DNA of 64,000 bases, taken from contig JAIWNE010000002.1 of the NCBI GenBank assembly GCA_025331445.1, forward strand, positions 682,001-746,000. The letters run 5' to 3'. Below, one piece after another: positions 5,258 to 43,885 of the stretch. Below the pieces are notes generated by a model, which did no database searches, had not been told where the DNA came from, and worked only from the letters and a program-made list of their open reading frames with translations. Each line of letters begins with the position of its first letter. The stretch's first letter is position 1. The position numbers and the translations under genes are program-made. Origin of the DNA: Blakeslea trispora. Lineage: Eukaryota; Mucoromycota; Mucoromycetes; Mucorales; Choanephoraceae.

Positions 5258-5289
5258 ATAAATTACAACATTAATATCAATGAGAATAG

Positions 5290-14820: not shown

Positions 14821-14882
14821 TTTCAAGGGATGAAAGAAAGTACGCAAAATAAAAAACACTAGAGATGTATTTAAAAAGTTTC

Positions 14883-15134: not shown

Positions 15135-15372
15135 GTTTCACCCTGAAATTTATCTGTGATTGACAACCATTCTGCATGAATTAGACTTGCATGAAACAGG
15201 ATGTCATAGTATGCTTGGGAAGAAAAAAAGAGCTTTCTAATTATGATATCTTGTTTCATGCAAGTCTAATTCATGCAGAATGGTTGTCAATCACAGATAA
15301 ATTTCAGGGTGAAACTTTTTAAATACATCTCTAGTGTTTTTTATTTTGCGTACTTTCTTTCATCCCTTGAAA

Positions 15373-15725
15373 ATGACTACGATTGATATTCCAGACGAAT
15401 ACATACACTATTTCAACGTCATGGACGAGATTCCAAGATATGATTTTATAGAGATAGAGCATCAGGTTGGCAACATTGTCGAGACAGTAAATCTCGAGTG
15501 GTACTACTGGGAAGCGGCGAGCCTGATGAAAAAAAAAAGAAGCAAGAGGACAATGAAAAGCGTCTTCCTGGCCAAAAAAAGCAGAGTACTCCACCAAAGA
15601 AGCTTGAGCCGTGTCATACAGACTTTCTTTGCAATTACTTTGACAAGAAGCCTGAAGCAGTACTTTGGCAAGCAAGGGATGCATTGCTTGAAAAGTTTCC
15701 TTCTATTCAATCGCTTAACCTGTCA
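15373..15725 (+). pseudogene. D...ExK family gene, 5' fragment in mirror arm
   Basis: A mirror copy of the 5' portion of the gene at 12743-14820, same sequence from the ATG (MTTIDIPDEYIHYFNVMDE) through KKPEAVLWQARDALLEKFPS, then breaking off at cctgtca into unrelated DNA. Only the N-terminal region is present, so it cannot make a complete protein. It does retain the leader and start codon. Confidence 0.8.
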
Positions 15726-16154
15726 AGTCTTCTAGACATCTTCTCCGTCATGCTGTTGAAGACCAATAAACCACAATGATATAAAATCAGAGAATTAATC
15801 AGACTAAAGATAATGTTTTATTTACTTCAAAATTGATGTGCTATTTATACTTTTCATAAAGATGATATTTCAACTGAGATTGTAAAACTTTTCTAGAGGC
15901 TTGTAGATGATTATGATAATAACAACGAATCGGATGAGAGATGAATGATGACAGTCTTGTAAAGAAGAATTACTAAAATAGAATGATTGGCCATCTGTAC
16001 CTTAAACCCAGTAACTGGTAAATAATTGGTAAGATGTCAGTCCTGACCTTGAATGAAGGTTTATCCGAATTGAATGTCAAATGAAACAAGCTGAAGTCGA
16101 ATTAGAGAATAGTTGTGGATTCATAAGTGGTTAAATCATTGATCCGTACTATAT
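15726..16154. other. Short spacer without a gene
   Basis: About 430 bp between the palindrome and piggyBac copy 2. I see no ORF or repeat of note. The last four bases (ATAT) are the target duplication of the transposon. Confidence 0.5.
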
Positions 16155-18736: not shown

Positions 18737-18742
18737 ATATGA

Positions 18743-19999: not shown

Positions 20000-20608
20000 T
20001 CTCTCAAGACTCAAATTCTACCTTAGCTAATATGCAAGCTATCTCAGCCAATCCATATGACTGACAGGGCTAATGTCGTTCTATACTCGACTTAAAGCTC
20101 TCCAAGGGAGTTAGTGCTGCAAAATGCAACGTGTATCAATACACTTTTCGAAAGCATCAACAATTATTTGAAGCACAATTGGGTCACATCCAACCAATCC
20201 ACATATAGGCCTAAGCATAACTTTTTCTTCAAATGGTAAAATGAAATAAAACATCATACAAGAAATAAGGCATGAGAAAATAGCTATTCAAAGAAAGCTC
20301 TAAACAAATTCATTAGTAAACCCCATACATTGCATACTTTTCTACTGATTGTACTAGAACTCGTTTGAATAGTAAAACTACTTTTATAACATCCATTAAC
20401 CACTTGTTGTTATTCCTTTGAGTGTTGACACTTGCATTTTATTACGATATTTTCTATCTTGGACTGTCTTTAACAAAAATAATATACAACGTATAGCTCT
20501 TTCAATAAGAAGATCATACACTTCGGATTGTTACCACAACTTTGCAAAAAGACGAGGATCAGTTGTTGTGCAAACTAAAGCAAATGGTAAAACAGGGTAT
20601 ATTATTTA

Positions 20609-22535
20609 TTAGAGCTTGCGAGCAGCAAGCCGTGGTGTAAAAAACACCGATTTGTCAACTACAATGTGTTTTTCGTTATCTTCTTCTTCTTCTTTTTCAT
20701 CATCATCTTCTTCTTCTCCTTCATCATCATCATCTTCTTCTTTCAGCCGAAGCCAAAACTCCTAAAATAATCATATTTCTATTAGCATTATGTTCTTGAG
20801 GCTCAATTATCAATGCAAATAAAGTACCTTCAACTCATAAATCGCAAGTAGCGAATTCAACAACTTGTCTCCCTGGAGATCTTGTCTGTTACCTGGTAAC
20901 TCCAAGTTTCCAACCAAGGTGACTACATGGGCACCTTTCAATGGTTGCATGGAATATAAATATCCATGCAAGCCATTGAAGTCCATGCCTAGCATGTAGT
21001 CACCAGGGAAGCCCTTCTTACTCAATTGGTTGAGTATGCATTTGTTAATGCGCACACTCTTGCTCTCTTGACCAATCGACAAGCTGCTTCTTTTGCTGCT
21101 GCTGCCCTTGCTTGTCTTCTGCTTCTTTTCTTGAAATTCTTGAGCTCGCTTAAACTCCAAGACACCAAGTTCACAACCTTTGCTTTTCACCAGGAGATCA
21201 ATCTTTCGGCCTCCGATTCGGCTGTTGCTGCTGTTGCTGCTGCTGAAGGAAAGCTCATTATTGAGCATTGCTTCTTTGGTTGAGAAGCATTCAGTCTCCC
21301 CGCTAAGCAGAACTAGTTATTATGTGGATAGAAGATGTTATTGCTAAAAAATTCTTACGGGTGAACTTCAATGCTTGTATCGTTCAGAATATGCAACAAA
21401 ATGCTGTCAACCAGAGAAACATAATTGAATTCGGCTTTTCTTTTCAGCATGCTTTCTAGGCTTGTAAACCTTTGAAGATGATCAGTATCCCATCTTTCGG
21501 CCAAAAAAAAATGAAAAAAGAACTCACAGGTAATGAAATACAAGCCGAATTTGATTGCCCAGACTGGTTTCATTTTCGCCATATTCAATCTTGAAGTCTG
21601 GTCTTGGCTTTTTTGCTTCCTACAAACAGAGTTAGTATGTTTTTTCTGTCTTTACTATAATAAAAAAAACATTACCTCTTGAAGCTCTGCAACAGTTGCT
21701 TTAATTAAATCAGCCTTGCTTCCAGGCAAGCAACGCTCAAACTTCAGAGCAACTAGCTCCTCATACAAATTCATTGGCAAGAATGCTTTCATGATATCTC
21801 TGTAATCTTCAGAGCAAACATTTGCCACTCTGGACAAGCTCAACCTATTTGGGTTAGTAAACTGGCAAGCAAGCCTTGGATTAAGACATGTCAACTTACT
21901 TCAAGGTAGCAATTTCAATTGCATTCAACTCTGAGTATCTTTTCAACAAAAGAAAAGACACCCTGTCCAACCAATTTGCCAAGCTTTGATCATCTTCACC
22001 AAGTATCAGACCAACTTCTTCTTCGAATTGTCTTCTTCTCTCAAGCAATCCTTCAACATTCTCCATCTATTAAGATTGAGTTAGCAAAGGCTTATCCAAG
22101 GTATAAGGTTTTGAAAACAAAACAAAAATTATGCCACTTTTAGATCAGTATATGGCTACAATTCAAAGTTACCTCACAAAAGCACCAGCTCATCAACTTG
22201 GAGCGGACTGCGCTTTCTCTTCGATCTAAAGAAGCCTGCTTTCTTGACTTTTTATTTTTATTTTTTGCAACGTTAGATAGAGTTCATTCATTATCTGACA
22301 TTTACCTTTTGGAAAAGAGCATCCCAATCACAAGCATTATCATCGCAGTAGGTGTTGATCGCTCTTGCTAGTTCTGGCTTTAACAAGAGAAGAGCTCTTT
22401 TGTACCGTCTTACCCATGCTGATCTCAAATGTATTGGGCTTTTATGATTATTTGTCGTAACAATCACTGACTCATGTTTGACTACGAACTCACTGAGAGT
22501 AAATTCAGTAGGCCTTGAAAGAAATTTTTCTAATT
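20609..22535 (-). pseudogene. D...ExK family gene, copy 2 (5'-truncated, motif intact)
   Basis: Minus-strand counterpart of the gene at 40960-42935 and the same from the exon starting ELEKFLSRP onward. It keeps the motif exon, in which GRKIDLLVKSKGCELGVLEF is followed by KRA: Asp, then Glu-x-Lys, as in PD-(D/E)XK nucleases. The last exon encodes WLRLKEE followed by an acidic Glu/Asp tract and ends VFFTPRLAARKL with the stop at 20609. Upstream of 22535 the family 5' exons are missing: the sequence passes into about 17 bp of intron-like DNA (a branch-like tactgaat on the minus strand) and then, across the DIRS insertion, into unrelated arm DNA. With no promoter or start it is presumably not expressed as such. 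Confidence 0.6.
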
Positions 22536-22731
22536 CTAAACTGTATTCAGTAAATCCAAATGTTGCCGAAGTGAAGGCAGAAAATGTGGTTAATGCTCTC
22601 AGAGCCACGCTTTATTTTTCATATAAATATAGTAATAAAATTTTAAATCCCTTTCTTCCTTATATCTTGAAAAGCAAGCATAGGGATAAGAATTCAATTT
22701 TTTTTTTTTTTTTTCAGGGTGGGTTAAGTAT

Positions 22732-23892
22732 TCAGAATAAGTTCTTCAAATGATTGAGCCAAGAAGTATGGGTGGGGTTAACCACATTTTCTGCCTTCAC
22801 TTCGGCAACATTTGGATTGTTTGTCGTACCTAAAACAATCTCAGTTGCCTTCGTTCCGGCTTCCAATGTGGTTAGGTTTTCCGTTGAAAAAATTGAATTT
22901 GTAATATTGGCACCCAAGGTAAGTGGTGTAGCTGGTTTATAATAAAATTTTTCAAATGTTTGTGAGTGTAGACTCCAATTCGCATGCTGTTTCACTTCAT
23001 CAATGCTATGACCATTTTCCACTGCTTTAGTACTAGCAGCCGAACGGATTGAGTGAGGTCCGTATTTGGTAGTATCAACACCTGCATCTTTCATCACCTC
23101 TTTCACCCAGTTAGCAACAGTAGTCTCACTAGCCGAGCAAGTCTTGGATGTATCTTCAATATATGCCAGGAATAATTTGTGTGTCTCACCTAGAATAACC
23201 CTGATAGATCTTGTTTGGTCAACAAAAGAAGAAAGACACTGGACAGGGCACACGCTCGAATTTTCAACAACACCGATAGTACATGTCTTGAACTGTGTTT
23301 CTTTTGGCATTCGAAAGTGGATTCTCGCACCCATTAAGGAGTTGTTTTCATCTCGATCTATTCGGATGTCACGGAATCGTATGTTGCCAACATCTGATCT
23401 CGGTCTGGCCATAGTTGCAATGCACAATAAAACGATTGTTTTTCTTTGTAATGTTGCTAACGAGATGGATTGATTGTTTGCCCAATTCATCTTGACAAAG
23501 CGTATCACAATGTCTATGTCCCATGTCTGCAATTTATGGTCCACTGGGATTGCAATCGGCTGGTTTCGTTTAGAACTAAAGAAATCTTGAATCAGTGGAT
23601 GGGATGCAATCGGATCCTTGTCTGGATGGGTGTGTTTGAAGACCGATGCGATAGCTGATCGCAATGTATTGAGATGTTGTGTGCTGAAATGCTTATTGTC
23701 TATCAAAAAGTCAAGTATGTTTTGTATATTGTAATCTTCATAGTCCCGGTTGTGATGTTTACACCAAAGCGCCCATGTTTTCCATCCATTGTCGTAAGTC
23801 TTTCTGGTGGTTACTCTTTGTGCGTCTTCTAAGAACTGGAGTGCCTCTTGTGTAAGGCCTTGGTCCCGTTGGGCTTTCCAGATAAGAGCCAT
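22732..23892 (-). CDS. DIRS tyrosine recombinase
   Basis: The C-terminal part of a long open frame encodes a phage-integrase-fold recombinase that would insert the circular or linear cDNA. Visible catalytic residues are Arg in MARPRSDVGNIRF, His and Arg in GPHSIRSAAS, a further His in HANWS and the nucleophilic Tyr in FEKFYYKP. The N-terminal SAM-like core-binding region is seen in RVTTRKTYDNGWKTWALWC. I placed the start at the Met at 23892, about 386 residues, the usual size; it overlaps the end of the RT ORF by 64 bp as is common in DIRS. The frame stays open upstream through the RT and gag regions, where it is a low-complexity shadow. The ORF ends inside the internal complementary region. 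Confidence 0.88.
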   Translation of the reverse strand: MALIWKAQRDQGLTQEALQFLEDAQRVTTRKTYDNGWKTWALWCKHHNRDYEDYNIQNILDFLIDNKHFSTQHLNTLRSAIASVFKHTHPDKDPIASHPLIQDFFSSKRNQPIAIPVDHKLQTWDIDIVIRFVKMNWANNQSISLATLQRKTIVLLCIATMARPRSDVGNIRFRDIRIDRDENNSLMGARIHFRMPKETQFKTCTIGVVENSSVCPVQCLSSFVDQTRSIRVILGETHKLFLAYIEDTSKTCSASETTVANWVKEVMKDAGVDTTKYGPHSIRSAASTKAVENGHSIDEVKQHANWSLHSQTFEKFYYKPATPLTLGANITNSIFSTENLTTLEAGTKATEIVLGTTNNPNVAEVKAENVVNPTHTSWLNHLKNLF

Positions 23893-25856
23893 GCGGCTAA
23901 GGTGGTCTTCTTGCTTAGTTGGTAAATTAATGGTTTGCTCAGGTGCTTCATCCTCAGCAACATTGGAAACCAAAACTGTGTTGGCCACCAAGGTGTGACG
24001 ATCACCATCCGGTCTATCTGCATTTGTTTTGCCTTCTGCAGTACCAATGGGATCAGTCTCCAAGGAGGGTAAGCATAGAGACCCTTCTTCGGCCATTGTT
24101 GTAAGAAGGCATCCGTTGCTGCTACTTGTGGATCGGGCCGTAGACTCCAGTAGACTGGTAGCTGTGTGTTCTGCCTGCTGGCAAACATGTCGATTGTCAA
24201 TGGACCCCATCTCTTGGTGATCGTCTGGAAGAATTGTCTCGGTATTTCGCTTTCGTACAGAGGTTTCTTGATTCGCGACAGTTGGTCCGCTTCGGTATTG
24301 TCTATTCCCTTGATGTGTTGGTATATTACCTGTAGATTGTGCTTGTTGCAAATCTCTTGGATTTCCACTGCAATGTTTTGTAAGTGAATTGAAGCTGTTC
24401 CTCCCTCTTTGGTGGTGTATTTGATAGAAGTCATGTTGTCGGTTAGAATCTTGATGGTAGAGTTTCTGAATTTTTCTGCATGGAGTTGTATTGCAAACAG
24501 AATCGTTTTCAACTCTCTTACGTTTATAGACAGTGCTTGTTCTTCCTGTGTCCAAAATCCGTGTGTTCGGATTATCAGTGAGTTGACCCCCCAACCTGTT
24601 TCCGAGCTGTCTGTCGTAATGACAATCTCCGGCTTGGTCAATGGAATGCGTTGGATTGGAAGGCCGTTTTTCTTCATCAGGAAGGTTTGCCACCATGTCA
24701 ATTCGCTGACTGCCTGTGTCTCCAGTTTGCAAGGTCCTTCCCAGTTGTGGTGGTTCAATGAAAGGCTTCTCGACAAGCTTCTCTGTAGATGCCGGATATG
24801 AAGGAGTGCTTCCCCCATTGCCGGTATCATTGCTGTAATTTTCCCAAGGAGGGCTGCTATCCATCGGCAAGTTCTGTTGATGGGTTGTACTGCCTGCTGT
24901 AAACGTTTCATCAATTTTCGAATTTTCAACTCTGGCACTCGTATTTGCATCTTGTGTGTATCGAATTCGAAGCCTAGATATTCCTGTGTTTTTGAAGGAG
25001 TTAATAAGCTTTTTCTTTGGTTGATGATGAAGCCAAGTAGTTCCAAATGTTTGATTACCCGTTGGGCTGTTTGTTGAAGATCTTTTGGATCTTGAGACAA
25101 TATACAGATGTCGTCTAAGTAATAGACCAAACGGATTCCTTGTAGTCGAAGCGGTTCTATGGCGTACCGAAGAAGCTTGGAAAATATTCTTGGGGCTGTG
25201 TTTAGACCAAAATTTAAAGCCTTGTATTGATAAATGGTACCTAGGTTTTCGAACACCAGAAAACGTCTTGAAACAGGATGGATCGGAACTACTGTATAGG
25301 CGTCTTGTAAATCCAATTTTACCATAAAATCGTTTGGCTCGATCAAGTCCCTGAGGGCCGGCACGCCTTCCATCTTGAAGTGTTCGACTTGGATGCATTG
25401 ATTGGTTCGTCTGCAATCCAATATGGGTCTTCTTTTGGTTGCTTCCTGTAGGGTGAAGAATCGAGAAAGATGATCTTTTCCCCTTGGATCTGTGCATTTT
25501 TCTATTATTCCAACAGTTAGAAATTTTTCGACGGCTATGTTTATTTCTTTTTGTTCTTCTGGGGGAAGAATTCTTCTTGGTAAATACCACTGTTGTGGCT
25601 TCTTTGCAAATGGGATTTGGTATCCCTCTTGTATCAGCTGCAATGGCCATGGATGTCGAATCATCTTCTCCCAATTGTGAACAAATGCTTTCAGTCGACC
25701 CCCCGGAAGTATGCCGTCTGTCGGTATCGAGTAATTCGTTGTCTGTTGTAGTTGTGGTGATGGTGGTAGTGGTTGTTGAGGTGGCAGTTTGGATGATGGT
25801 GGTGTGGGTGTTGACGATAGGGCTTGGTGTTTCTGCTTCGTCGGGAGTGTTGCCAA
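23829..25856 (-). CDS. DIRS reverse transcriptase / RNase H / Dam-like domain protein
   Basis: 675 residues. After a Pro/Gln-rich N-terminus come the RT blocks: RPILDCRRTNQCI, FMVKLDLQDAYTVVPIHP, FGLNTAPRIFSKLL and the active site VYYLDDICI (YLDD). RNase H follows with VITTDSSETGWG, NVRELKTILFA and ILTDNMTSI, ending in NTEADQLSR. The C-terminal part TIDMFASRQNTQLPVYWSL through VIVTPWWPTQFWFPM corresponds to the methyltransferase-like region found in DIRS elements. No frameshift or stop is present, so the enzyme should be functional. It would reverse-transcribe the element RNA in a cytoplasmic or nuclear particle. Confidence 0.93.
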   Translation of the reverse strand: MATLPTKQKHQALSSTPTPPSSKLPPQQPLPPSPQLQQTTNYSIPTDGILPGGRLKAFVHNWEKMIRHPWPLQLIQEGYQIPFAKKPQQWYLPRRILPPEEQKEINIAVEKFLTVGIIEKCTDPRGKDHLSRFFTLQEATKRRPILDCRRTNQCIQVEHFKMEGVPALRDLIEPNDFMVKLDLQDAYTVVPIHPVSRRFLVFENLGTIYQYKALNFGLNTAPRIFSKLLRYAIEPLRLQGIRLVYYLDDICILSQDPKDLQQTAQRVIKHLELLGFIINQRKSLLTPSKTQEYLGFEFDTHKMQIRVPELKIRKLMKRLQQAVQPINRTCRWIAALLGKITAMIPAMGEALLHIRHLQRSLSRSLSLNHHNWEGPCKLETQAVSELTWWQTFLMKKNGLPIQRIPLTKPEIVITTDSSETGWGVNSLIIRTHGFWTQEEQALSINVRELKTILFAIQLHAEKFRNSTIKILTDNMTSIKYTTKEGGTASIHLQNIAVEIQEICNKHNLQVIYQHIKGIDNTEADQLSRIKKPLYESEIPRQFFQTITKRWGPLTIDMFASRQNTQLPVYWSLRPDPQVAATDAFLQQWPKKGLYAYPPWRLIPLVLQKAKQMQIDRMVIVTPWWPTQFWFPMLLRMKHLSKPLIYQLSKKTTLAAWLLSGKPNGTKALHKRHSSS

Positions 25857-25864
25857 GTGATGCG

Positions 25865-26728
25865 TTATTGTTGTTGTTGTTGTTGATTTGATTGTGTGGG
25901 AATGTTGTTGGAGTTGACTGAGGAGGGGAATCGGTTCCCACGGCCGTTTCCCCTTTGGTGAAAATTTCCTCCAAAGGGTCTGTTATTGAAACGGTTAAAT
26001 CCTCTGCCTCTAAAACCACCTCTGTTATATGCTCTTCCTGGTTGTTGACTATTGTTGGAGTTGTTGTACAGTAATCTTTGTTGAAATCTAGCCTGGGTGA
26101 GGTCGTCAAGGAATTCCTGATCGAATGTGTTGTTAGCTCTGTCGTCGTCATTTGATCTGACCTTGTGTTGCAAACTGACTGGGATGCGTAGGGCCTGTGT
26201 AGCATATTGCTTGGCCTCATTGTCTTGGAATTTAGCCTGTCCGAAACCAAAGATCGCCAGCTTGGCTGCTTGATCAACGGTGCCTTGAAAGATTTCCTTG
26301 TCTTCGGCGTTGGTGAATCCCGCTTTGTCTTGTAGGTAGAGTAATTGTTCGTACAGTTCTGTTGCTGCTCTTGCCTGTACACGGGTGTTTTCGGAACACT
26401 TGTAGATTGACGTAACCACCTGGTGGGTGTCTGTCTTCCACTTCTTGAGTTCAGGAATGAGTTCCTTGTTGATTTGTTGCTGTTTGTTCCAGGTATCATT
26501 TCTGTATCGAGCGACCTGTTTTTTAAAGCGAGTAAACTCCTCTTTAAGTTCATATGTTGGCGTGCCGTCCAAATACTCTGATATGTCCAACGGCAATTCG
26601 CTACCATGCCTTTCTTCATCTCTTCTCGTTCGTTCTTCAACTTGTAATCTTTTGAATAACTCGAGTACTTCGGTTTCTGTAAGATATCGTTGCTCAATCT
26701 CATTGATATCCGTCATAATTTTTTCCAC
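25865..26728 (-). CDS. DIRS gag-like protein
   Basis: 287 residues: MEKIMTDINEIEQRYLTETE, helical charged regions, then an Arg/Gly/Asn-rich nucleic-acid-binding section (RGGFRGRGFNRFNNRP) and a Gln tract at the end. There is no CCHC knuckle, as usual in DIRS gag. It ends 8 bp before the RT ORF begins. The Q-tract is encoded by a TTG-complement microsatellite (about 25865-25890) and may vary in length. The role as structural particle protein is inferred from position and composition. Confidence 0.8.
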   Translation of the reverse strand: MEKIMTDINEIEQRYLTETEVLELFKRLQVEERTRRDEERHGSELPLDISEYLDGTPTYELKEEFTRFKKQVARYRNDTWNKQQQINKELIPELKKWKTDTHQVVTSIYKCSENTRVQARAATELYEQLLYLQDKAGFTNAEDKEIFQGTVDQAAKLAIFGFGQAKFQDNEAKQYATQALRIPVSLQHKVRSNDDDRANNTFDQEFLDDLTQARFQQRLLYNNSNNSQQPGRAYNRGGFRGRGFNRFNNRPFGGNFHQRGNGRGNRFPSSVNSNNIPTQSNQQQQQQ

Positions 26729-26949
26729 GATGCGCGGCTTTGAAAGATATAAGGAAGAAAGGGATTTAAAATTTTATTACTATATTTATATGAAAAATAA
26801 AGCGTGGCTCTGAGAGCATTAACCACATTGGAAGCCGGAACGAAGGCAACTGAGATTGTTTTAGGTACGACAAACAATCATCAAATCGAAACTAATTAAA
26901 ATTACCTTCTTTTCCAATAAAATTCATAACTAAATAATGCAAAAAGAGG

Positions 26950-27062
26950 CAAACAGGAGTATAGTGATCAACAGAAGTATAGTGATAAACAGAAGTATAG
27001 TGATAAACAGAAGTATAGTGATAAACAGAAGTATAGTGATAACAGAAGTATAGTAACAAACA
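26950..27062. repeat. 18-bp minisatellite in left arm
   Basis: Six to seven head-to-tail units near gtatagtgataaacagaa, mirrored at about 40760-40870 in the right arm. No coding role is seen; ORFs through it only reflect the repeat. Confidence 0.85.
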
Positions 27063-28569
27063 GAAATAAAGAGGTGAACAGAGAGAAAAAGGTGGACCTG
27101 ACATGCCTGGGGAAACTCCAGTCTCAAATATTGATTTGTTTGGATGATATTGACCAATCAGATGAATATCTAAGACCGATCTTATAAAACCAAACTCGGC
27201 TTTGCTAGATTTTGAGTTTTCTGAAGGTTAATTTTTGGTACACGAACAAAGTACACGGACTAATTCCGAAAGCGTTTCATCTTGGGCAATGTGAAGGAAA
27301 GTATAGACTTCCGTAAATATCTGGAGGCCTTGTTCATTTGCGGATTGCGAGAATGAGCATCGTACCAGCACCTTTGTATTTGAACATCTCTTGCTATCAT
27401 CGCCTTCTTTGCATGATCTTTTGTTTTCCTTCTTTTTGTCTCTCCCACCTAAGTCAGGCCATGTAACACATTCATGCTTACTTATATAATCATTATATGT
27501 TTGATGTTTGTGCTACACAGAGAGCTGTTATGATCTGCCAACTTTGTTTTTGTTGACGTTTCAAAAACTCTGTGTGCTGTAAGTAATGGAAAAAATGTAG
27601 AGAGAGAGAAAGCGACGTAATTTTCTTGCTCCTAAAATTCTTTCTCCAATTTATTTGAAGCAAAATATTGTCTTGAATGAAGCTGGATAGATTCTTGTTT
27701 AGAGCAAGATAGAATATTGCATCCCTCCTTTTTTTTAGCTTTTTTCTTCGCAGTAACCAGTCATTTTGCATGAATCAAGAAATAAAAAGGAGTAGCGAAT
27801 AATGGCGTATGGCATGTGATGCATAGGATACTTCTAGGCTCATATTTTTTGTTGATATTTTCGTAATGGGAAATATGTAGTTATCATCTATCCTTCATCA
27901 CAGACATTTATATTGCTTGTTGTAAGACACTATCCCTTATTCCCCCTTTTTTTATTTATTGGCTACCTATGAGATGACTGGTTGCTATAGAAGAGAATAT
28001 AAAAAAAAGAAATACTTGTGATGATCTGACCTAATAAAAGTTCTTATATCAACCTTTAAAAAACATCTTCAAACATCTCTAACATCGGACTAGGAATAAA
28101 GAAATTCATCCCTGAATGAATTCCATAAAAAGATTTTTATCTGATATTGAAATTATCAATCTTACAAATATAAACGTTTAACATAGGGACCGCCATAAAA
28201 AAATTCTATCGGACCGCCAGTCGCACAACGTATTTCCATATTTGGATAATATTATGCGCCGATAAAAATGTACTTTCAAATAAAGTATTAATGGTTGTAC
28301 TAAATGACTAGTATGGATCAGAGAGCTTTAAGATACTATGGCGGTAGTACGCAATGAACAAAAATGGTAGTGTCGGTAGTACATACAAAACAAAAGAAGT
28401 AGTGATGGTAGTACATACAATACAAAAGAAGTAGTGGCGGTAGTACACAGTTTTGAACATGTAGATAAAGGGTGACCATTTCTCGAAGTTTTTTTTTTGT
28501 CAAAATTTCTTTTACAACACATTTCCTATTCTATTTGAAGCAAACAAACAACCCTAAAACTTTAGCAAA

Positions 28570-29025
28570 ATGAACCAAAATCTTTATTCGGTACCTTCTC
28601 CTCTTCCAGCTATTCCTAGAAAAGCTGACAAAAGTACCATCAGAACCTTGTTCATTGAATATGCTACAAAAAACAACTTTACATTGACAACCCATCGATC
28701 AGAAAAGAACAGATTAGTTTTGATTTGCAAGAAGGGTGAATCATATCGCAACACTAGAGGAACCGATCCAATTGATAAGCAGAGAATCAGATTAAGCTGT
28801 AAAATTGATTGTCCTTACAAATTGACATTTTACCAGAAAAAGAATGAGGGATTTGAACTTGTACAATCAAAGGATGAAAATGCATACAAGCACAACCATT
28901 TGCTCGATGAAGCCAATTTGTTGAGCTCTGCAGAAGGTCGCAAAAACAATTTGACTTCTGCAGATGCAGAAAAGCTTTCCATTGGTATTGATCAGAATGC
29001 AACTTCAAGTAACATTCAACTTTAA
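28570..29025 (+). CDS. MULE transposase N-terminal exon, FAR1/WRKY-GCM-like zinc domain
   Basis: A 151-residue ORF beginning MNQNLYSVPSPLPAIPRKAD. It carries LVLICKKGESYRN, then RIRLSCKIDCPYKLTFYQKK and AYKHNHLLDEANL: Cys, Cys-x3-Cys and His-x-His, the zinc pattern of the FAR1 / WRKY-GCM1 DNA-binding fold that precedes the catalytic core in many MULE transposases. It starts shortly after the left TIR and on the same strand as the catalytic part at 31689, so both are probably pieces of one transposase. The 2.6 kb between them is too long for a normal intron in this genome and holds no coding signal I recognise; it is probably a later insertion or a degraded section. Confidence 0.7.
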   Translation: MNQNLYSVPSPLPAIPRKADKSTIRTLFIEYATKNNFTLTTHRSEKNRLVLICKKGESYRNTRGTDPIDKQRIRLSCKIDCPYKLTFYQKKNEGFELVQSKDENAYKHNHLLDEANLLSSAEGRKNNLTSADAEKLSIGIDQNATSSNIQL

Positions 29026-31660: not shown

Positions 31661-31688
31661 TTCTGAAAAAAAAAAAGCAGCAACTGAC

Positions 31689-34055: not shown

Positions 34056-34609
34056 GTACGTAGAGTAAAATCAAAATTTAAAGCTCCAACATACTGACTC
34101 ATTGCTTTCTCTTCATTTTTTTACTTGGATAATAACCCATTGAATTCGTTTACTTTATTATGCAATAAATGCTATTATTCACATTTCAAAAGACATGACT
34201 CCTTCACCAGCACAATTATCTACATGTTCAAAACTGTGTACTACCGCCACTACTTCTTTTGTTTTGTATGTACTACCGACACTACCATTTTTGTTCATTG
34301 CGTACTACCGCCATAGTATCTTAAAGCTCTCTGATCCATACTAGTCATTTAGTACAACCATTAATACTTTATTTGAAAGTACATTTTTATCGGCGCATAA
34401 TATTATCCAAATATGGAAATACGTTGTGCGACTGGCGGTCCGATAGAATTTTTTTATGGCGGTCCCTATGTTAAACGTTTATATTTGTAAGATTGATAAT
34501 TTCAATATCAGATAAAAATCTTTTTATGGAATTCATTCAGGGATGAATTTCTTTATTCCTAGTCCGATGTTAGAGATGTTTGAAGATGTTTTTTAAAGGT
34601 TGATATAAC

Positions 34610-35917
34610 ATGGTTTCTCCGCTAAACAATCATTTTGGAAAAACCGGTGGCTTAGACCCACCTCCAACCAGACAACAACAACCTTCTTCGACTAGATCTT
34701 GGTCCCAGGTCGTAGGCAAACACGTCAGACAGTCCCTCATTCCCAACACAATTGGCAACAGTAGTCATGAGACGCAGAATAGCGACAAGATAGTCAAAAC
34801 TAGCATCTGGCGCCCTGGACACGGCAACAACAGCGTATACATTGACATGAGCGGTCGAAAAGAGACAAAAACCGAATTTTACAAACTACTTCTGGAACAA
34901 TATCCTTCCCGTATAGGAGCTCGACCCCAACAACTGGGCAACTTGAAGTTCGCAGAAATCAGCTTCCAGCGGGATGACAACGCAATGGACGCCTTTCTGG
35001 AGAAAGGACTTCTCCTTCAGGACGGTGTTCGAATTTTGCCATGTAGAGCTTTAGCCTCTGATATGAGTGTCGTTAATATTCGCTTATCCAATCTACCTTT
35101 CCTGGTTGAGAAGGAATTGGTAGAGGGATTGAAAGAAAGTTTGAGTCCTTATGGGACTATTCTGGATGTTGGTATGTTAGTTGACCCGGAAACTAAGACA
35201 TACGAGTGTAATGGTTATGCTGTCCTTCATGTTCCTAATGAGGATAATAAAGTAAATAAGTTGACACACAGTATCCCTTGGAAGGGTGGTCAAGATGACC
35301 AGTTTTATGCAGTTTGGAAGCAAATGCCCAAATACTGTAAATACTGTCATAAGGAGGGTCACTCAGTGGCCGATTGTGAAACTAAGAAGAAGAAACAGAT
35401 TTGTTGGAGTTGTGATGAAAATGGCCATATTGCCGCCATTTGTCCTAAACGCAATGCGAGCAAAAAGTTGAAGGTGCAGGCAGTGCCACAGGATAATTTT
35501 GTTTTTGATTTGTCTCAGACCCAAGCTTTCATTGGGTCGAAGCGCCGAAGACATGGAGCCTCATCAGACCATACAGGCCCATTGCCTCCATTAGACTCGA
35601 AGCCTACGGAAACTATCTCCGAAGTCTTTACGACTCAGGTACTCACCAAACCATCTTCACCCAAATCTGAGCATTCGAATAAAGAGATGTCTCACCCTAT
35701 TGCGCTCAGCCAGGCTTCGGTTGAGGTACACAATCGGCAGACAGACTCCAACTTAGCCTCTCGCTCCCAGTCAGTCGAAGAGGTTTTTGATTTTGATATG
35801 GGGGATCTAGAATATCCCGCCGCTGTAACTGATTTTGTCTCGTCCATGCCATCCACTTCTCCCTCTCATCCGTCAGAGGAGAAGCCTTCGTCCTCCCCAT
35901 TAGATATCTATGAGTAG
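34610..35917 (+). CDS. LINE ORF1, RRM-like/gag protein with two CCHC knuckles
   Basis: 435 residues starting one base after the target duplication. A possible RRM-like fold is seen around SVVNIRLSNLPFLVEKELVE to ECNGYAVLHVP. Two zinc knuckles follow: CKYCHKEGHSVADC and CWSCDENGHIAAIC (C-x2-C-x4-H-x4-C). The C-terminal third is Ser/Pro-rich and probably disordered. ORF1 proteins bind the element RNA and form the ribonucleoprotein. It overlaps ORF2 by 8 bp (35910-35917), suggesting termination-reinitiation of translation. No stops or frameshifts. Confidence 0.92.
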   Translation: MVSPLNNHFGKTGGLDPPPTRQQQPSSTRSWSQVVGKHVRQSLIPNTIGNSSHETQNSDKIVKTSIWRPGHGNNSVYIDMSGRKETKTEFYKLLLEQYPSRIGARPQQLGNLKFAEISFQRDDNAMDAFLEKGLLLQDGVRILPCRALASDMSVVNIRLSNLPFLVEKELVEGLKESLSPYGTILDVGMLVDPETKTYECNGYAVLHVPNEDNKVNKLTHSIPWKGGQDDQFYAVWKQMPKYCKYCHKEGHSVADCETKKKKQICWSCDENGHIAAICPKRNASKKLKVQAVPQDNFVFDLSQTQAFIGSKRRRHGASSDHTGPLPPLDSKPTETISEVFTTQVLTKPSSPKSEHSNKEMSHPIALSQASVEVHNRQTDSNLASRSQSVEEVFDFDMGDLEYPAAVTDFVSSMPSTSPSHPSEEKPSSSPLDIYE

Positions 35918-38900
35918 TAGATCCCCTCTCCTACTTCAGTTCGGCTCACTTAACTGTAACAGTTTAGTGAAGTCTAACAATCCCCAAAAACAATCTCGTT
36001 TTATTCGATATTTACGTTCCTTACAATTTGATATTCTCGCCTTTCAGGAGACCCATGCCTCTCCTTCTGTCATTCCTATACTCAATACACAATTCCAAGC
36101 CCACCAATCCTTGTGGACTTCTAACTGTGGTATTGTTTCCTTCTCTCCTTCATTTCAATTTTCCTCCAATCTACTGCCTGATGAGGACCGAGTGATACTC
36201 ACCAAGGTCACTAGTCCACACAACTTATTCCTTCCTTTCTTTGTGTTGGTAGTTTATGCGCCAGCTTCCTCCGGTAGAGCACGAAAAGCTTTCTTTAATC
36301 AGCTATTAGAATCTTTGTCCCTACCTTCAATGGATATTGACCTGGCACGTTTGTTCATTGCGGGAGATTTCAACTACTCTTATTTAAGACCCCACCTTCT
36401 CTCTTCCACCTCCGAAAGATGGGTTTCCTTTCTCGACGAAAGGTTTGTTAATATTCTTCGAGCCTTTGACTTGCACGAATTGCCTACTTTTTGCCGCAAC
36501 GCCTCCACCAGTTCCACAATCGATTATCTTTTTGCTGGCAATGACCTTCACCAGTCCGTTGTTGAGACAGACTTACAAATGATCAACCCTGCCTGGTCTG
36601 ACCACTCACTCTTGACTTTGAAATGCTCATTGGGGATATCTTCTACAGGTCCAGGCCTGTGGAGAGCCCACCCTCGTCTTCTCGACAAGGCTTCCTATCA
36701 GGATTGTCTGCTTCAGCATTTACCATCCTTTCTGAGCGATGCTAGTAACTCTGGCTGTACACCTCAGGGGCAATGGGATATGATTAAAGCTAACATCAAA
36801 CGAATCACCAAACGCTTTTCTCTTCGGCTGGCAACGGAAAGAAAGCATGAGCTCAAGCAATTGATGAAAGAACGGAATAGCTTCTTGCGTTCCAAACCAT
36901 CTATAGAGGTGCGTAACTCTCAACTACCTATCTATGACAAAGCTATTGCCGCTTTACAGGAGGATACGAGCGCTACCTTGGCCTTACGGGCGAATGTTCG
37001 CTGGAGGGAAAAGGGCGAGACATCCATTAAATACCTCAGACACATGGTTCGACATAGGTCCAACACTCAGCAAATGACAGCCCTAAGAACGTCACCGGAT
37101 GAGACAGCCAACAGTGACCTCCACTCCATGCTCCACACATCCCAGCAATTCTATACAGGATTGTATAGTACTGATCCGGTGGAAGAGACGGATTTGGACA
37201 GCTATTTGACAGATCTCACTGATCTCCCACTGTTGCCAGAGGATGCTCGCGTTGCCCTTCTCAATCCTATTACTCTCGACGAAATACTTTCGGCCACTTC
37301 AAAGGTAGTGGGTAAACAGAGCAGTCCAGGGTCTGACGGTCTCGGTTACGCATTTCTTTATCATTTATTTCGATATCCTCCCCTTCAACAGCTAGTTGTT
37401 ACAATCTTTAATGAGGCTCTCCAGTTATGTGCGTTTCCGAACTCTTGGAGTGATATTCGAGTGAGACTGTTACCCAAAAAGGGCGATCTTACTCTCTTAC
37501 GTAACTGGAGACCCATTTCTCTAATCAACTGTGACGCCAAGATTTTCACCCGTATCCTTAACAATCGAATGAAAACAGTGGCTGTGAGTCTGATCAACCC
37601 GTTTCAGACAGGGTTTATGCCCGACCGCTTCATCGGTGCTAATGGTTTACTAGTCAACATCGTCATGGAACATGCTCGCCGCACTTCCAGCGATAATATT
37701 GCCATGCTTTTGGACCAGGAAAAGGCCTATGACCGTGTCCACCCGTCTTACCTACGTAAGGTTCTTGAGAAATTTAACTTTCCCACATCGTTCATTGATT
37801 GTATCCTTCGTCTCTTCTTCTCGAACCGGGTACATATCAACGTGAATGGCTATTTCTCTGATGAGGTTCAACAGTGCCGTGGTCTCCGCCAAGGTGATCC
37901 TCTCTCGCCTTTGCTATTCAATTTCGCTCTTGAGCCACTGCTAAGACATATACTTCAAGACTCGTCTTTTCAAGGTTATGAGTTTGGGGCTTCCACGAGT
38001 ATCGGTTCCGCTCCCTCACCGTCTCCTCTGAAAGTACTTGCTTATGCTGATGATGTATGCGTATTCTTGTCGTCGCCCACTGACTTTGATCTACTTCAGG
38101 GTCATTTGTTGCGGTATAGTAACGTATCCAATGCCAAGGTAAATATGGAGAAAACCGAGGTCATCGCTCTCAGTGGTCGACCATCTCAAAACTGGCGTCG
38201 TTATCTACAATCTCAAGGCATCCATAGTTGGCATGATCGTACTTCCAATCAGCCTCTCCGTTATTTGGGTTTCCCACTGATCAGTTCCCTCTCACAACGG
38301 AAATGGGTTGAAGAACAGCTTTTGACCTCCATCAGGGACTCTTGTGACGCTTATGCCTCTCGTCAGCTCTCCATCCGGGGTCGCGCTACCGTCGTCAATA
38401 ACGTTGTATTGAGCAAATTCTGGTACTGCATGCGAGTGCTGTCTTTACCCCTATACTTCTTCAACAGGGTACGCAGCTTGGTACGTTCTTTTCTAACTCA
38501 AGGTATCAGACCGGGTTTCAAATATGATGTTCTCTGTCTACCAATCTCACAAGGTGGTCTTGGACTTCTGGATCCCATGGTGCAGCATCACCGCCTATAT
38601 GTTCGGTGAATTAAAGAGGCTTTTCACCCCTCGTCCTTTTCGCTTGTCCGTCCTTACCTCTTGGATCATATTGGCCGCTTCTTCACTAAAGGCACCAATT
38701 CTATCCTCTCATGTTTCTATTCAGACTTGAGAGCTCCTAGTTCCTTGGACTTTGGTCACTTCATGCATCAATTTTTCCTTACTTTCGATCTGTACTATGA
38801 TGAGGATGTGCGTCAGGTTGCTTGCAATCTCCCGACCTTTCTTTACCTTCCTCTTACCACTTGCTTCCAAGAGCTATCGGAGGACCATTGGATACTGCAG

Positions 38901-39656
38901 AAACGCCATCGGCCGTTGTTGACTTCTGATTTTTTCTGTATTGACCACACCCGCCATAGCTTTCGACTCCTTGGAGTCTCTGATCATCCTCGCTTTCCTC
39001 GTTTACTGAGCCGTCTGTACAAGGGCTTAAGGGATTGCACTATTCGCATACACCCTCGTTTACGAGAAGCAATTGAACTATTCCTCGAACCTACAGACGA
39101 TTTTAGTACTACAGCCCTTGCAGCCTCTCTGCGTTCATCAATCCACTGGACTGATCACACGTCGAACCTTTTCACTTCCTGCCTGCGTCGCGACCTTCTC
39201 CAAGCGGACCCATCTGGGCTATCTTCTGTTCTTTGGCTACGGTTCTGGTCTTTGCCTCTCGATCCTTCCTGCCGAACCTTCTGGTTTCGAGTGTTACACA
39301 ACAAGTTTCACTGTCAGGCTACCATTGCCCTCTTCCGACCTGACGTGTCCCCTGCTTGTCCCTTCTGTCTCTTGCCTTCTGAATCCCGTTCTCACCTTCT
39401 TTTTGAGTGTCCCACCAAATGGGCCATCTGGCAAATTGTTCTCCGTTCCGCTTTTCCCTTCCTTGACTTCAATCCTGGTCATGTCATTAACGTTCTCTGG
39501 AAGTTTCAAACTTTTGACTATGCTCCACCTGCTCCCCTTTTCACACTTTGCGCTGCCACTGCCAGAGCAATCTGGTGCGCGCACTGGGCGTTTGTCCGTC
39601 AAGCAACTCCCTTTAGAGAATCTACAATCCTAAAACATATTTACCGACTTAAATAG
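35910..39656 (+). pseudogene. LINE ORF2, endonuclease-reverse transcriptase (one TGA)
   Basis: N-terminal APE-type endonuclease: FGSLNCNSLVK, LAFQETHAS, LFIAGDFNYS and SDHSLLTLK. Central RT: PGSDGLGYAFLYHL, RLLPKKGDLTLLRNWRPISL, FQTGFMPDRFIGAN, RGLRQGDPLSPLLFN and the active site LAYADDVCVF. The C-terminal zinc-binding region holds CPFCLLPSESRSHLLFECP. The ORF stops at a TGA at 38607-38609 and continues in the same frame to 39656, so one nonsense codon (LYVR-stop-IKEAFHP, probably once Trp) cuts off the last third, including the zinc region. Everything else is open, so inactivation is recent or the copy is polymorphic. About 1248 codons, a normal ORF2 length. Confidence 0.92.
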
Positions 39657-40759
39657 TTCCCCCTTTCTTTCCAACTTTCTCTTATCCTAGCACACCGCTC
39701 TTAATGACGTGTGACTATTTCCTTTTATTTATTAAATAAATTGTTATACAAAAAAAAAAAAAAGGTTGATATAAGAACTTTTATTAGGTCAGATCATCAC
39801 AAGTATTTCTTTTTTTTATATTCTCTTCTATAGCAACCAGTCATCTCATAGGTAGCCAATAAATAAAAAAAGGGGGAATAAGGGATAGTGTCTTACAACA
39901 AGCAATATAAATGTCTGTGATGAAGGATAGATGATAACTACATATTTCCCATTACGAAAATATCAACAAAAAATATGAGCCTAGAAGTATCCTATGCATC
40001 ACATGCCATACGCCATTATTCGCTACTCCTTTTTATTTCTTGATTCATGCAAAATGACTGGTTACTGCGAAGAAAAAAGCTAAAAAAAAGGAGGGATGCA
40101 ATATTCTATCTTGCTCTAAACAAGAATCTATCCAGCTTCATTCAAGACAATATTTTGCTTCAAATAAATTGGAGAAAGAATTTTAGGAGCAAGAAAATTA
40201 CGTCGCTTTCTCTCTCTCTACATTTTTTCCATTACTTACAGCACACAGAGTTTTTGAAACGTCAACAAAAACAAAGTTGGCAGATCATAACAGCTCTCTG
40301 TGTAGCACAAACATCAAACATATAATGATTATATAAGTAAGCATGAATGTGTTACATGGCCTGACTTAGGTGGGAGAGACAAAAAGAAGGAAAACAAAAG
40401 ATCATGCAAAGAAGGCGATGATAGCAAGAGATGTTCAAATACAAAGGTGCTGGTACGATGCTCATTCTCGCAATCCGCAAATGAACAAGGCCTCCAGATA
40501 TTTACGGAAGTCTATACTTTCCTTCACATTGCCCAAGATGAAACGCTTTCGGAATTAGTCCGTGTACTTTGTTCGTGTACCAAAAATTAACCTTCAGAAA
40601 ACTCAAAATCTAGCAAAGCCGAGTTTGGTTTTATAAGATCGGTCTTAGATATTCATCTGATTGGTCAATATCATCCAAACAAATCAATATTTGAGACTGG
40701 AGTTTCCCCAGGCATGTCAGGTCCACCTTTTTCTCTCTGTTCACCTCTTTATTTCTGTT

Positions 40760-40870
40760 TGTTACTATACTTCTGTTATCACTATACTTCTGTTTATCAC
40801 TATACTTCTGTTTATCACTATACTTCTGTTTATCACTATACTTCTGTTGATCACTATACTCCTGTTTGCC
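40760..40870. repeat. 18-bp minisatellite in right arm
   Basis: Mirror of the minisatellite at 26950-27062, here read as cactatacttctgtttat units. The repeat has stayed in both arms. Confidence 0.85.
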
Positions 40871-40959
40871 TCTTTTTGCATTATTTAGTTATGAATTTTA
40901 TTGGAAAAGAAGGTAATTTTAATTAGTTTCGATTTGATGATTTACTGAATACAGTTTAG

Positions 40960-42935
40960 AATTAGAAAAATTTCTTTCAAGGCCTACTGAATTTACTCTC
41001 AGTGAGTTCGTAGTCAAACATGAGTCAGTGATTGTTACGACAAATAATCATAAAAGCCCAATACATTTGAGATCAGCATGGGTAAGACGGTACAAAAGAG
41101 CTCTTCTCTTGTTAAAGCCAGAACTAGCAAGAGCGATCAACACCTACTGCGATGATAATGCTTGTGATTGGGATGCTCTTTTCCAAAAGGTAAATGTCAG
41201 ATAATGAATGAACTCTATCTAACGTTGCAAAAAATAAAAATAAAAAGTCAAGAAAGCAGGCTTCTTTAGATCGAAGAGAAAGCGCAGTCCGCTCCAAGTT
41301 GATGAGCTGGTGCTTTTGTGAGGTAACTTTGAATTGTAGCCATATACTGATCTAAAAGTGGCATAATTTTTGTTTTGTTTTCAAAACCTTATACCTTGGA
41401 TAAGCCTTTGCTAACTCAATCTTAATAGATGGAGAATGTTGAAGGATTGCTTGAGAGAAGAAGACAATTCGAAGAAGAAGTTGGTCTGATACTTGGTGAA
41501 GATGATCAAAGCTTGGCAAATTGGTTGGACAGGGTGTCTTTTCTTTTGTTGAAAAGATACTCAGAGTTGAATGCAATTGAAATTGCTACCTTGAAGTAAG
41601 TTGACATGTCTTAATCCAAGGCTTGCTTGCCAGTTTACTAACCCAAATAGGTTGAGCTTGTCCAGAGTGGCAAATGTTTGCTCTGAAGATTACAGAGATA
41701 TCATGAAAGCATTCTTGCCAATGAATTTGTATGAGGAGCTAGTTGCTCTGAAGTTTGAGCGTTGCTTGCCTGGAAGCAAGGCTGATTTAATTAAAGCAAC
41801 TGTTGCAGAGCTTCAAGAGGTAATGTTTTTTTTTATTATAGTAAAGACAGAAAAAACATACTAACTCTGTTTGTAGGAAGCAAAAAAGCCAAGACCAGAC
41901 TTCAAGATTGAATATGGCGAAAATGAAACCAGTCTGGGCAATCAAATTCGGCTTGTATTTCATTACCTGTGAGTTCTTTTTTCATTTTTTTTTGGCCGAA
42001 AGATGGGATACTGATCATCTTCAAAGGTTTACAAGCCTAGAAAGCATGCTGAAAAGAAAAGCCGAATTCAATTATGTTTCTCTGGTTGACAGCATTTTGT
42101 TGCATATTCTGAACGATACAAGCATTGAAGTTCACCCGTAAGAATTTTTTAGCAATAACATCTTCTATCCACATAATAACTAGTTCTGCTTAGCGGGGAG
42201 ACTGAATGCTTCTCAACCAAAGAAGCAATGCTCAATAATGAGCTTTCCTTCAGCAGCAGCAACAGCAGCAACAGCCGAATCGGAGGCCGAAAGATTGATC
42301 TCCTGGTGAAAAGCAAAGGTTGTGAACTTGGTGTCTTGGAGTTTAAGCGAGCTCAAGAATTTCAAGAAAAGAAGCAGAAGACAAGCAAGGGCAGCAGCAG
42401 CAAAAGAAGCAGCTTGTCGATTGGTCAAGAGAGCAAGAGTGTGCGCATTAACAAATGCATACTCAACCAATTGAGTAAGAAGGGCTTCCCTGGTGACTAC
42501 ATGCTAGGCATGGACTTCAATGGCTTGCATGGATATTTATATTCCATGCAACCATTGAAAGGTGCCCATGTAGTCACCTTGGTTGGAAACTTGGAGTTAC
42601 CAGGTAACAGAAAAGATCTCCAGGGAAACAAGTTGTTGAATTCGCTACTTGCGATTTATGAGTTGAAGGTACTTTATTTGCATTGATAATTGAGCCTCAA
42701 GAACATAATGCTAATAGAAATATGATTATTTTAGGAGTTTTGGCTTCGGCTGAAAGAAGAAGATGATGATGATGAAGGAGAAGAAGAAGATGATGATGAA
42801 AAAGAAGAAGAAGAAGAAGAAGAAGAAGAAGATGATGATGATGATGAAAAAGAAGAAGAAGAAGATAACGAAAAACACATTGTAGTTGACAAATCGGTGT
42901 TTTTTACACCACGGCTTGCTGCTCGCAAGCTCTAA
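40960..42935 (+). pseudogene. D...ExK family gene, copy 3 (5'-truncated, motif intact)
   Basis: Eight exons can be joined in frame: 40960-41189, 41257-41322, 41429-41595, 41651-41819, 41877-41968, 42003-42137, 42194-42668, 42735-42935. Sections in order: LEKFLSRPTEFTLSEF, a basic helical part (SAWVRRYKRALLLL), MENVEGLLERRRQFEEEVGL, KIEYGENETSLGNQIRLVFH, then the motif exon GRKIDLLVKSKGCELGVLEF with KRA following and a Lys/Ser-rich loop, NKCILNQLSKKGFPGDYML, and an acidic Glu/Asp tract longer than in the left arm, ending TPRLAARKL. Asp and E-x-K are placed as in PD-(D/E)XK nucleases; the fold assignment is inference. The 5' exons are missing as in the left arm. It differs from copy 2 by several substitutions (for example GNRKDLQGNKLL against GNRQDLQGDKLL). 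Confidence 0.62.
42750..42870 (+). repeat. GAA/GAT trinucleotide tract in the family's last exon
   Basis: Coding microsatellite giving an acidic Asp/Glu run. It is clearly longer than the mirrored tract at about 20675-20740 in the left arm, so it has expanded or contracted since the arms separated. Confidence 0.85.
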
Positions 42936-43544
42936 TAAATAATATACCCTGTTTTACCATTTGCTTTAGTTTGCACAACAACTGATCCTCGTCTTTTTGC
43001 AAAGTTGTGGTAACAATCCGAAGTGTATGATCTTCTTATTGAAAGAGCTATACGTTGTATATTATTTTTGTTAAAGACAGTCCAAGATAGAAAATATCGT
43101 AATAAAATGCAAGTGTCAACACTCAAAGGAATAACAACAAGTGGTTAATGGATGTTATAAAAGTAGTTTTACTATTCAAACGAGTTCTAGTACAATCAGT
43201 AGAAAAGTATGCAATGTATGGGGTTTACTAATGAATTTGTTTAGAGCTTTCTTTGAATAGCTATTTTCTCATGCCTTATTTCTTGTATGATGTTTTATTT
43301 CATTTTACCATTTGAAGAAAAAGTTATGCTTAGGCCTATATGTGGATTGGTTGGATGTGACCCAATTGTGCTTCAAATAATTGTTGATGCTTTCGAAAAG
43401 TGTATTGATACACGTTGCATTTTGCAGCACTAACTCCCTTGGAGAGCTTTAAGTCGAGTATAGAATGACATTAGCCCTGTCAGTCATATGGATTGGCTGA
43501 GATAGCTTGCATATTAGCTAAGGTAGAATTTGAGTCTTGAGAGA

Positions 43545-43885
43545 AAATCAAGCTTCTATGGTGGAGCACTCTGCTTTTTTTGGCCAGGAAGACGCTTTTC
43601 ATTGTCCTCTTGCTTCTTTTTTTTTTTTTCATCAGGCTCGCCGCTTCCTAGTAGTGCCACTCGAGATTTACTGTCTCGACAATGTTGACAGCCTGATGCT
43701 TTATCTCCATAAGATTATATCTTGGAATCTCGTCCATGAAGTTGAAACAGTGCATGTACTCGTCTGGAATATCAATCGTAGTCATTTTCAAGGGATGAAA
43801 GAAAGTACGCAAACTGAAAAAAAAAATATATATCCGCAAAATAAAAAGACAAGTCCGCAAAACGAAAGCAAAATCCAACAATGAG
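43545..43885 (-). pseudogene. D...ExK family 5' fragment and leader (copy 4)
   Basis: On the minus strand the leader (tgttggattttgctttcg ... gcgtactttctttcatccct) leads to an ATG at 43785, MTTIDIPDEYMHCFNFMDE..., and the Lys/Glu-rich part, then stops at caagcttct, exactly where the giant inverted repeat begins. Against the copy at 14820 it has several substitutions and a TAG where the others have TGG (LEWHY-stop), so the two reading frames of the 5' part cannot be joined here without splicing. It lies about 90 bp before the Kin1 gene start, divergent from it, so it may lend promoter sequence. Confidence 0.7.

Follow-up and report, generated by a model that had tools for sequence, protein, structure and literature searches.

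A gene-bearing palindrome with a Mutator-like element in its loop resembles a fold-back inverted duplication and has six counterparts in the genome assembly of Blakeslea trispora

Some human fold-back inverted duplications have inverted Alus of ~296 bp at their spacer edges (Hermetz et al. 2014, PMC3907307), and in yeast, a distance of 30 kb between inverted repeats in single-stranded DNA leaves them no more stable than close ones (PMC10164571). Here we describe a palindrome in the fungus Blakeslea trispora whose arms each hold a copy of a nuclease-like gene and whose loop is a Mutator-like element (MULE) with its terminal inverted repeats (TIRs) at the turn. It lies in a window of 64,000 nucleotides, positions 682001-746000 of contig C112 (874,853 bp), in an assembly of 37.2 Mb and 285 contigs (C and L numbers are our own handles for contigs and fetched loci). 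The structure looks like a genomic inverted duplication and not like a new mobile element. It has in common with the human fold-back cases the inverted arms, the unduplicated loop and an outer end that on one side meets new sequence and, here and in a second palindrome on contig C272, inverted homology at the loop edge (PMC3907307). It differs from the human and yeast cases (PMC3907307, PMC10164571) in its arms of 1-5 kb, its setting in a fungal genome assembly and its recurrence at seven loci, six of them with transposon sequence in the loop (two on weak evidence). All seven loci also carry PD-(D/E)xK-like genes, partly because our searches used such genes.

Other systems are similar in part. 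Palindromes with mirror gene copies, several per genome, are found on the mammalian Y chromosome, in Folsomia candida (PMC5490193) and in Adineta vaga (PMC5916493), but those described here are mostly centred on transposons and involve nuclease-like genes; their arms are almost identical, whereas those of F. candida span a wide range of synonymous divergence (Ks; PMC5490193). Long inverted repeats also characterise the Mutator/Foldback element Tm1 (PMC3169594), likewise of Mutator type, and Galileo (PMC4168063). There, the repeats are part of the element and are seen again at its other copies, in Tm1 with 9-bp target duplications, which is not the case for our arms. Pack-TIR capture (PMC8277862) resembles this locus in that a template switch at a TIR transposon leads to the duplication of other sequence, yet the captured DNA ends up inside the element; at this locus the duplicated DNA is found beyond both TIRs, in the form of mirror arms. 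In a search of the open-access literature, no paper was listed that describes palindromes with genes from any Mucorales genome, or palindromes that contain PD-(D/E)xK-like genes. The type of event is already known; the surprising part, which we did not find in print, is its recurrence at nuclease-like genes in a fungus.

The mirror structure was delimited by self-BLAST of the window (Table 1). Inverted matches joined 20000-22561 to 43544-40932 (97.9% with an indel counted), 26876-28057 to its fully identical counterpart, 28044-28415 to 34608-34237 (99.5%) and 28422-28468 to 34262-34216. The two arms (20000-28174 and 34478-43544) each measure ~3.9 kb once a retroelement-like insertion on the left and a long interspersed nuclear element (LINE) on the right are set aside. 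Alignment gave 3 substitutions in 2562 bp of the outer part and 0 in 1182 bp of the inner part, far beyond chance, and these 3 are the only substitutions between the right arm and the left arm, whose non-MULE part counts 3861 bases; further differences are a 48-bp microsatellite change and one or a few single-base gaps. An earlier note, made from the sequence alone, had described the arms as mirror images after removal of the two insertions, which is borne out, and as equal in length within ~20 bp, which is not: the right arm has an extra 48 bp of CTT/CAT-type microsatellite. It was also right that the mirror crosses the MULE ends unbroken, as 131 of the 131 bp adjoining the MULE are identical between the arms, as far as the LINE, with no leftover of another flank. 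The MULE interior (28469-34215) is unmirrored and forms an unduplicated spacer between the inverted copies. By eye, neither direct repeats nor a target duplication was seen at the outer ends (20000 and 43544).

Table 1. Features of the palindrome and its surroundings (window positions)
Feature	Position	Strand	Remarks
Third, partial arm copy	12795..14459	-	same orientation as left arm; 97.6-99.7%
Second, small palindrome	14456..15736		arms 14456-14859 and 15334-15736 (0.4 kb) around a miniature inverted-repeat transposable element (MITE)
Left arm, outer part	20000..22561		self-BLAST; holds most of the gene copy (- strand)
Arm gene, mirror (left) copy	~20609-26927	-	left-arm retroelement probably in first intron
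Retroelement-like insertion, left arm only	22562..26875	-	no right-arm counterpart; open reading frame 22732-26703
Left arm, inner part	26876..28174		26876-28057 is a 100% mirror of 40942-39761
MULE, palindrome loop (spacer)	28175..34477	+	ends set by comparison with other copies; PF10551 at 31689-32096
MULE left TIR	28175..28468	+	2 differences in 241 bp from right TIR
2.54-kb segment breaking the transposase frame	29021..31561		absent from copies L015 and L016
MULE right TIR	34216..34477	-	self-BLAST and TIR alignment
Right arm, innermost part	34478..34608		mirrors 131 bp left of 28175, all identical
LINE, right arm only	34609..39760	+	target duplication of ~11-14 bp (GGTTGATATAA core)
Right arm, remainder	39761..43544		self-BLAST
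Arm gene, right copy	40891..42936	+	several exons; hand-made exon model from translations
Transposon fragment abutting the right arm outside	43548..43821	-	93% to 14586-14856

We consider it probable that the arms arose as a fold-back (template-switch) inverted duplication, with the MULE as the loop and its TIRs at the turn. The process would start from a MULE adjoining a segment with the gene. A strand that leads outward through the MULE, once broken or stalled, would fold back and anneal one MULE TIR with the other; synthesis would then copy the flanking segment in reverse for ~3.9 kb, and the end would be rejoined elsewhere, beside a transposon fragment. The expected product is gene - TIR - MULE - TIR - reversed gene, with the MULE interior unduplicated. 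What we observe is the seamless mirror that starts with the first base beyond each TIR, a gene half restricted to this locus, flanks without a mirror at other MULE loci, insertions specific to one arm, and six more palindromes of similar build; what we infer is that a break occurred, that the strand folded back and that gene conversion may have homogenised the arms. The inverted homology present at the spacer boundary in the window is that of the MULE TIRs (241 bp with 2 differences).

The central element has a firm match to the MULE DDE domain (PF10551, E 1.9e-15). The other modules named in the earlier note were less secure: the SWIM and zinc/AFT-like matches fell below Pfam cut-offs, and the OTU-like module was read by eye and had no Pfam match. 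Alignment with copies elsewhere placed the start of the TIR at C-GTTTAACATAGGGACC (28175 and 34477), 11 bp further out than the GGGACC at which the note had ended the element, and gave TIRs of 260-290 bp. The note's observation of no target duplication, made at the misplaced ends, also holds at the true ones, where the longest direct match is 5 bp. Target duplications of MULE type measure 8-11 bp. Among four other two-ended copies, three had none, and L025 had an A-rich 9-bp match with 1 mismatch, which 1.8% of shuffles reached. The note had set against its own interpretation the prospect of other copies with a normal duplication in unrelated DNA; unrelated DNA was indeed found around them, a clear duplication at none. 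As a side observation, the 2.54-kb segment that breaks the transposase frame, across whose site L015 reads open, is common to several long MULE copies.

Two TIRs could be recognised at five further loci (L010, L015, L016, L024 and L025; one TIR end is broken in L016 and one slightly altered in L025), whereas the remaining fetched copies have no second TIR. At these five, inverted similarity covered 167-262 bp at 98-100% identity and consisted of TIR sequence only. A genome search for the arms, as the earlier note had proposed, found long DNA matches to the gene half (20000-22550) at the window locus only, in both arms and in the partial copy at 12795-14459. Other gene-half matches were short and mostly to a repetitive stretch at query 670-744. 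The inner arm includes a degenerate dispersed repeat (~27217-28014), with dispersed matches at 68-90%. Because the mirror is limited to the TIRs at five other loci and the gene half is unique to this one, we conclude that the arms are not giant MULE TIRs, contrary to the note's proposal of a MULE with kilobase TIRs and a cargo gene.

Both arms contain the same intron-containing gene, as the earlier note had stated, in mirror copies with several exons. Its motif GGRKIDLLV...ELGVLEFK, read by eye, is of PD-(D/E)xK type, and the genes are termed PD-(D/E)xK-like by motif only; a Pfam scan of pieces of the arm genes gave no match. Searches of Pfam, PADLOC and PDB sequences yielded no name for the arm genes, and the C272-type family had no PDB sequence match. 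The longest open piece of the window gene (42228-42686) has two related proteins (P0001 and P0002). The nearest named homologues of the window and C272 genes are in Choanephora cucurbitarum and Gilbertella persicaria, respectively, both Mucorales.

Further palindromes were reached by two routes, copies of a MITE and protein searches of the genome with the C272 frame and with a piece of the window gene. Mirrored flanks above shuffles were seen in 2 of 26 fetched MITE copies, drawn from the best-scoring matches and not at random: L040 (C272) and its paralogue L058 (C37). With this low count, the idea that palindromes generally follow the MITE was dropped. The C272 palindrome (2166-6736 of L068, C272:29500-38500) surrounds a 215-bp MITE; its arms have 0 differences in 2178 bp, and each holds one 483-codon open frame with a PD-(D/E)xK-like motif, the frames pointing outward. 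The protein searches gave 39 matches for the C272 frame and 21 for the window piece. Among these 60, pairs on opposite strands, of equal score (within 2%) and at most 25 kb apart occurred at eight loci, six of them besides the two query loci. Equal score is itself a proxy, and five of the six were confirmed by self-alignment: C242 (arms 1585 bp, 99.75%), C113 (1901 bp, 99.95%), C232 (at least 1244 bp, 99.92%, reaching the edge of the fetched sequence), C35 (2971 bp, 99.93%) and C57 (L077+L076+L078, C57:117000-130700; at least 5044 bp, 99.84%, with 0 substitutions in 5036 bp and 8 one-base gaps, running to the fetched ends). Outside the verified count are C210 (39087-54185; an unfetched pair of equal score, 14 kb apart) and C220 (a pair 15 kb apart with scores 54.3 and 51.8).

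The six further palindromes thus have arms of 1.2-5 kb that are 99.7-100% identical and loops of 0.2-3.6 kb; with the window, the seven verified loci total 6 substitutions in 18,771 aligned arm bp. Their general anatomy is the same, and the other reading of the earlier note, which puts the MULE in the middle of a fold-back structure, is supported. Gene orientation is outward from the loop at all loci but C57, where the genes face it, and a PD-(D/E)xK-like motif was read by eye at every locus except C57 (6/7). In the protein searches, the window gene was not among the matches of the C272 frame, nor the C272 gene among those of the window piece; C35 was found by the window piece (E 0.003), C232 and C57 by the C272 frame (E 1e-5 and 1e-4). 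The failed cross-matching implies at least two gene groups, joined only by the by-eye motif. Ratios of nonsynonymous to synonymous substitution (dN/dS) of ~0.25 and 0.52 for the C272 gene against two of its three paralogues (10 and 52 changes) are weak evidence of constraint.

Transposon sequence was found in six of the seven loops, window included; for two of these the evidence is weak or was read by eye. The C57 loop (3.6 kb) has a MULE transposase frame (PF10551, E 3.1e-18), the C113 loop (1.0 kb) a Tc1-type transposase (HTH_Tnp_Tc3_2, E 1.1e-11), the C35 loop (1.1 kb) an OTU-like remnant seen by eye and without a Pfam match, and the C242 loop (0.6 kb) weak transposase-type helix-turn-helix matches, all below cut-off. 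In the C232 loop (2.4 kb), no transposon was recognised, and by eye it appears to include the 5' part of one gene copy. Among the six loci other than C57, transposon TIRs are clear at the loop edge in the window and C272 only.

Other origins of the palindrome were weighed. The MULE could have inserted precisely in the middle of an older palindrome that had no spacer, as the mirror is accurate to the single base at either MULE end, two other palindromes centre on a MITE with TA-type ends, where insertion would be traceless, and this MULE may leave no duplication, given the four other two-ended copies without a clear one. Such an insertion would need to strike the dyad to the base, though, and a duplication of 8-11 bp would break the mirror, where none is present; moreover, other loops hold gene sequence (C232, by eye) or transposon pieces without recognisable edge TIRs (C242, C113). 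We judge this origin unlikely. Aberrant transposition with the ends of sister MULE copies, in place of repair, would account for a MULE with both TIRs at the turn, but the transposase frame is broken in this copy, although another copy could act in trans, and same-shaped palindromes have no recognised TIRs at the turn; of all the explanations weighed here, we give it the least credence. The capture of a gene within the kilobase TIRs of a MULE or fold-back transposon might explain why gene-bearing palindromes recur and why the C57 loop also holds a MULE. Besides the TIR-only similarity and the lack of DNA copies of the gene half reported above, it is opposed by outer ends without direct repeats by eye (window, C113, C35), by the window MULE and arms having no DNA match to C35 and the MULE and inner arm a single 34-bp match (82%) to C57, and by a transposon type that varies between loops, which together make it highly improbable.

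The near identity of the arms (6 substitutions in 18,771 bp over seven loci) could also point to an assembly artefact, by joined haplotypes, a hairpin or an amplification chimera: the palindromes are known from the assembly alone, and palindromes reported from one bdelloid rotifer assembly were not recovered in a closely related rotifer (PMC5916493). Yet the window arms carry separate insertions, one a LINE with a target duplication, and the outer flanks differ between sides at all five loci where both ends are visible (window, C272, C242, C113 and C35). The loops of 0.2-6.3 kb are unmirrored (the MITE being itself palindromic), and the loci are internal to their contigs (139-875 kb long), at least 16 kb from either end. 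In a control search, 150 kinase matches contained no inverted equal-score pair, for which reason haplotype duplication was rejected. Nor does any other MULE copy resemble the owner of a lost flank, since the best other match longer than 60 bp to the window TIR has at most 97% identity. We therefore regard an artefact as very unlikely. As for the insertions, the LINE label of the earlier note was confirmed by endonuclease, reverse transcriptase and zf-RVT domain matches; the left-arm insertion is present as described, but behind its DIRS label there is only a Phage_integrase match, which is weak (E 7.7e-4) and falls short of the cut-off. Since each is limited to one arm, the retroelement and the LINE would most simply have arrived after the palindrome.

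Relatives of the C272 palindrome bear on the fold-back reading. Unpaired copies on C37, at C272:128-133 kb and on C218 (97-99% identical) extend past one outer end only, as if one arm were parental and the other a truncated copy. Several observations weigh against the fold-back reading. C37 keeps a ~29 bp mirror beyond the MITE and the second C272 copy keeps 4-5 bases of the MITE end, so that the unpaired relatives may be palindromes that lost an arm; if C37 did inherit the palindrome, the C272 arms must have been homogenised (0/2178 different), because C37 differs by ~1.6%. The mirror remnant in C37 is also the one hint of age for any of these palindromes. A pre-duplication allele of the window locus was not found, and the arm-MULE-arm join is read from assembled sequence. 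By eye, no transposon TIR was recognised at the loop edges of C242, C113, C35 and C232, which implies that TIR annealing is not the general trigger; a version in which transposon TIRs drive every palindrome was rejected on this ground.

A more far-reaching possibility is that the PD-(D/E)xK-like genes promote their own duplication: the nuclease, or tail-to-tail DDE_3 transposons, would break DNA, fold-back repair would double the gene, and conversion would preserve the copies. We hold this to be decidedly unlikely, the more so because the window and C272 genes do not find each other. If true, palindrome formation would be a mode of propagation of selfish genes. The gene searches started from genes already inside palindromes. 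Against the absence of inverted equal-score pairs among kinase matches, several of which are exons of a single gene, 6 occurred among 150 DDE_3 matches (those listed of 167), so the claim that only PD-(D/E)xK-like genes form inverted pairs was abandoned and the bias is relative. Same-strand equal-score pairs numbered 0 for kinase, 3 for DDE_3 and 1 for the gene searches; the candidates scored were 122 of 422 for kinase, 150 of 592 for DDE_3 and all (56 and 32) for the gene searches. Separately, inverted equal-score DDE_3 pairs at C216:63069-68674, C168:322197-330027, C270:70511-87172, C215:235716-247402 and C49:55952-66477 may be palindromes.

The arm-type genes may, from their genomic positions, be passengers or partners of a DDE_3-type transposon. 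Among the DDE_3 matches listed for the contigs concerned, one lies within 1 kb of 4 of 57 merged gene matches (C242, C113, C8 and C79), each time on the 3' side and tail-to-tail, and on C226, C270 and C215 one lies at 1.6-6.3 kb in other arrangements. A further search added C267, with a match at 526 bp, tail-to-tail. In the window, the fragment next to the right arm comes from a transposon related to this type. Element ends that would prove a linkage of gene and transposon were not found.

At the window locus, what is plausibly a natural product of fold-back repair can be read base by base, including the transposon TIRs where the sequence turns. It belongs to a small genome with at least seven gene-bearing palindromes, met via a MULE, a MITE and two nuclease-like gene groups, in which the origin and upkeep of palindromes become testable in a fungus. 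Fold-back duplication is also a possible route to long inverted repeats around transposons and to inverted gene pairs.

Elsewhere in the window, 2673-5266 and 16146-18739 were considered as a second giant palindrome and rejected: both are copies of a dispersed 2.6-kb repeat, 99.9% identical and in opposite orientation, and other contigs hold more nearly full-length copies of it. The MITE of the small palindrome, judged by eye to be of Tc1/mariner-like class, consists of 14860-14882 and 15131-15333, split by a solo long terminal repeat (LTR). This nested solo LTR (14883-15130) has TG..CA ends and a 5-bp target duplication, GTTTC, by eye. Relatives of the fragment at 43548-43821 on C279 and C257 are each followed, on the same strand and within 0.5 kb, by a DDE_3-type transposase match. 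In the third arm copy, 13050-13163 has 7 differences in 114 bp; with the left arm as the reference, 6 of these are G-to-A or C-to-T changes. They adjoin a ~140-bp deletion, the last one within the overlap at the deletion edge.

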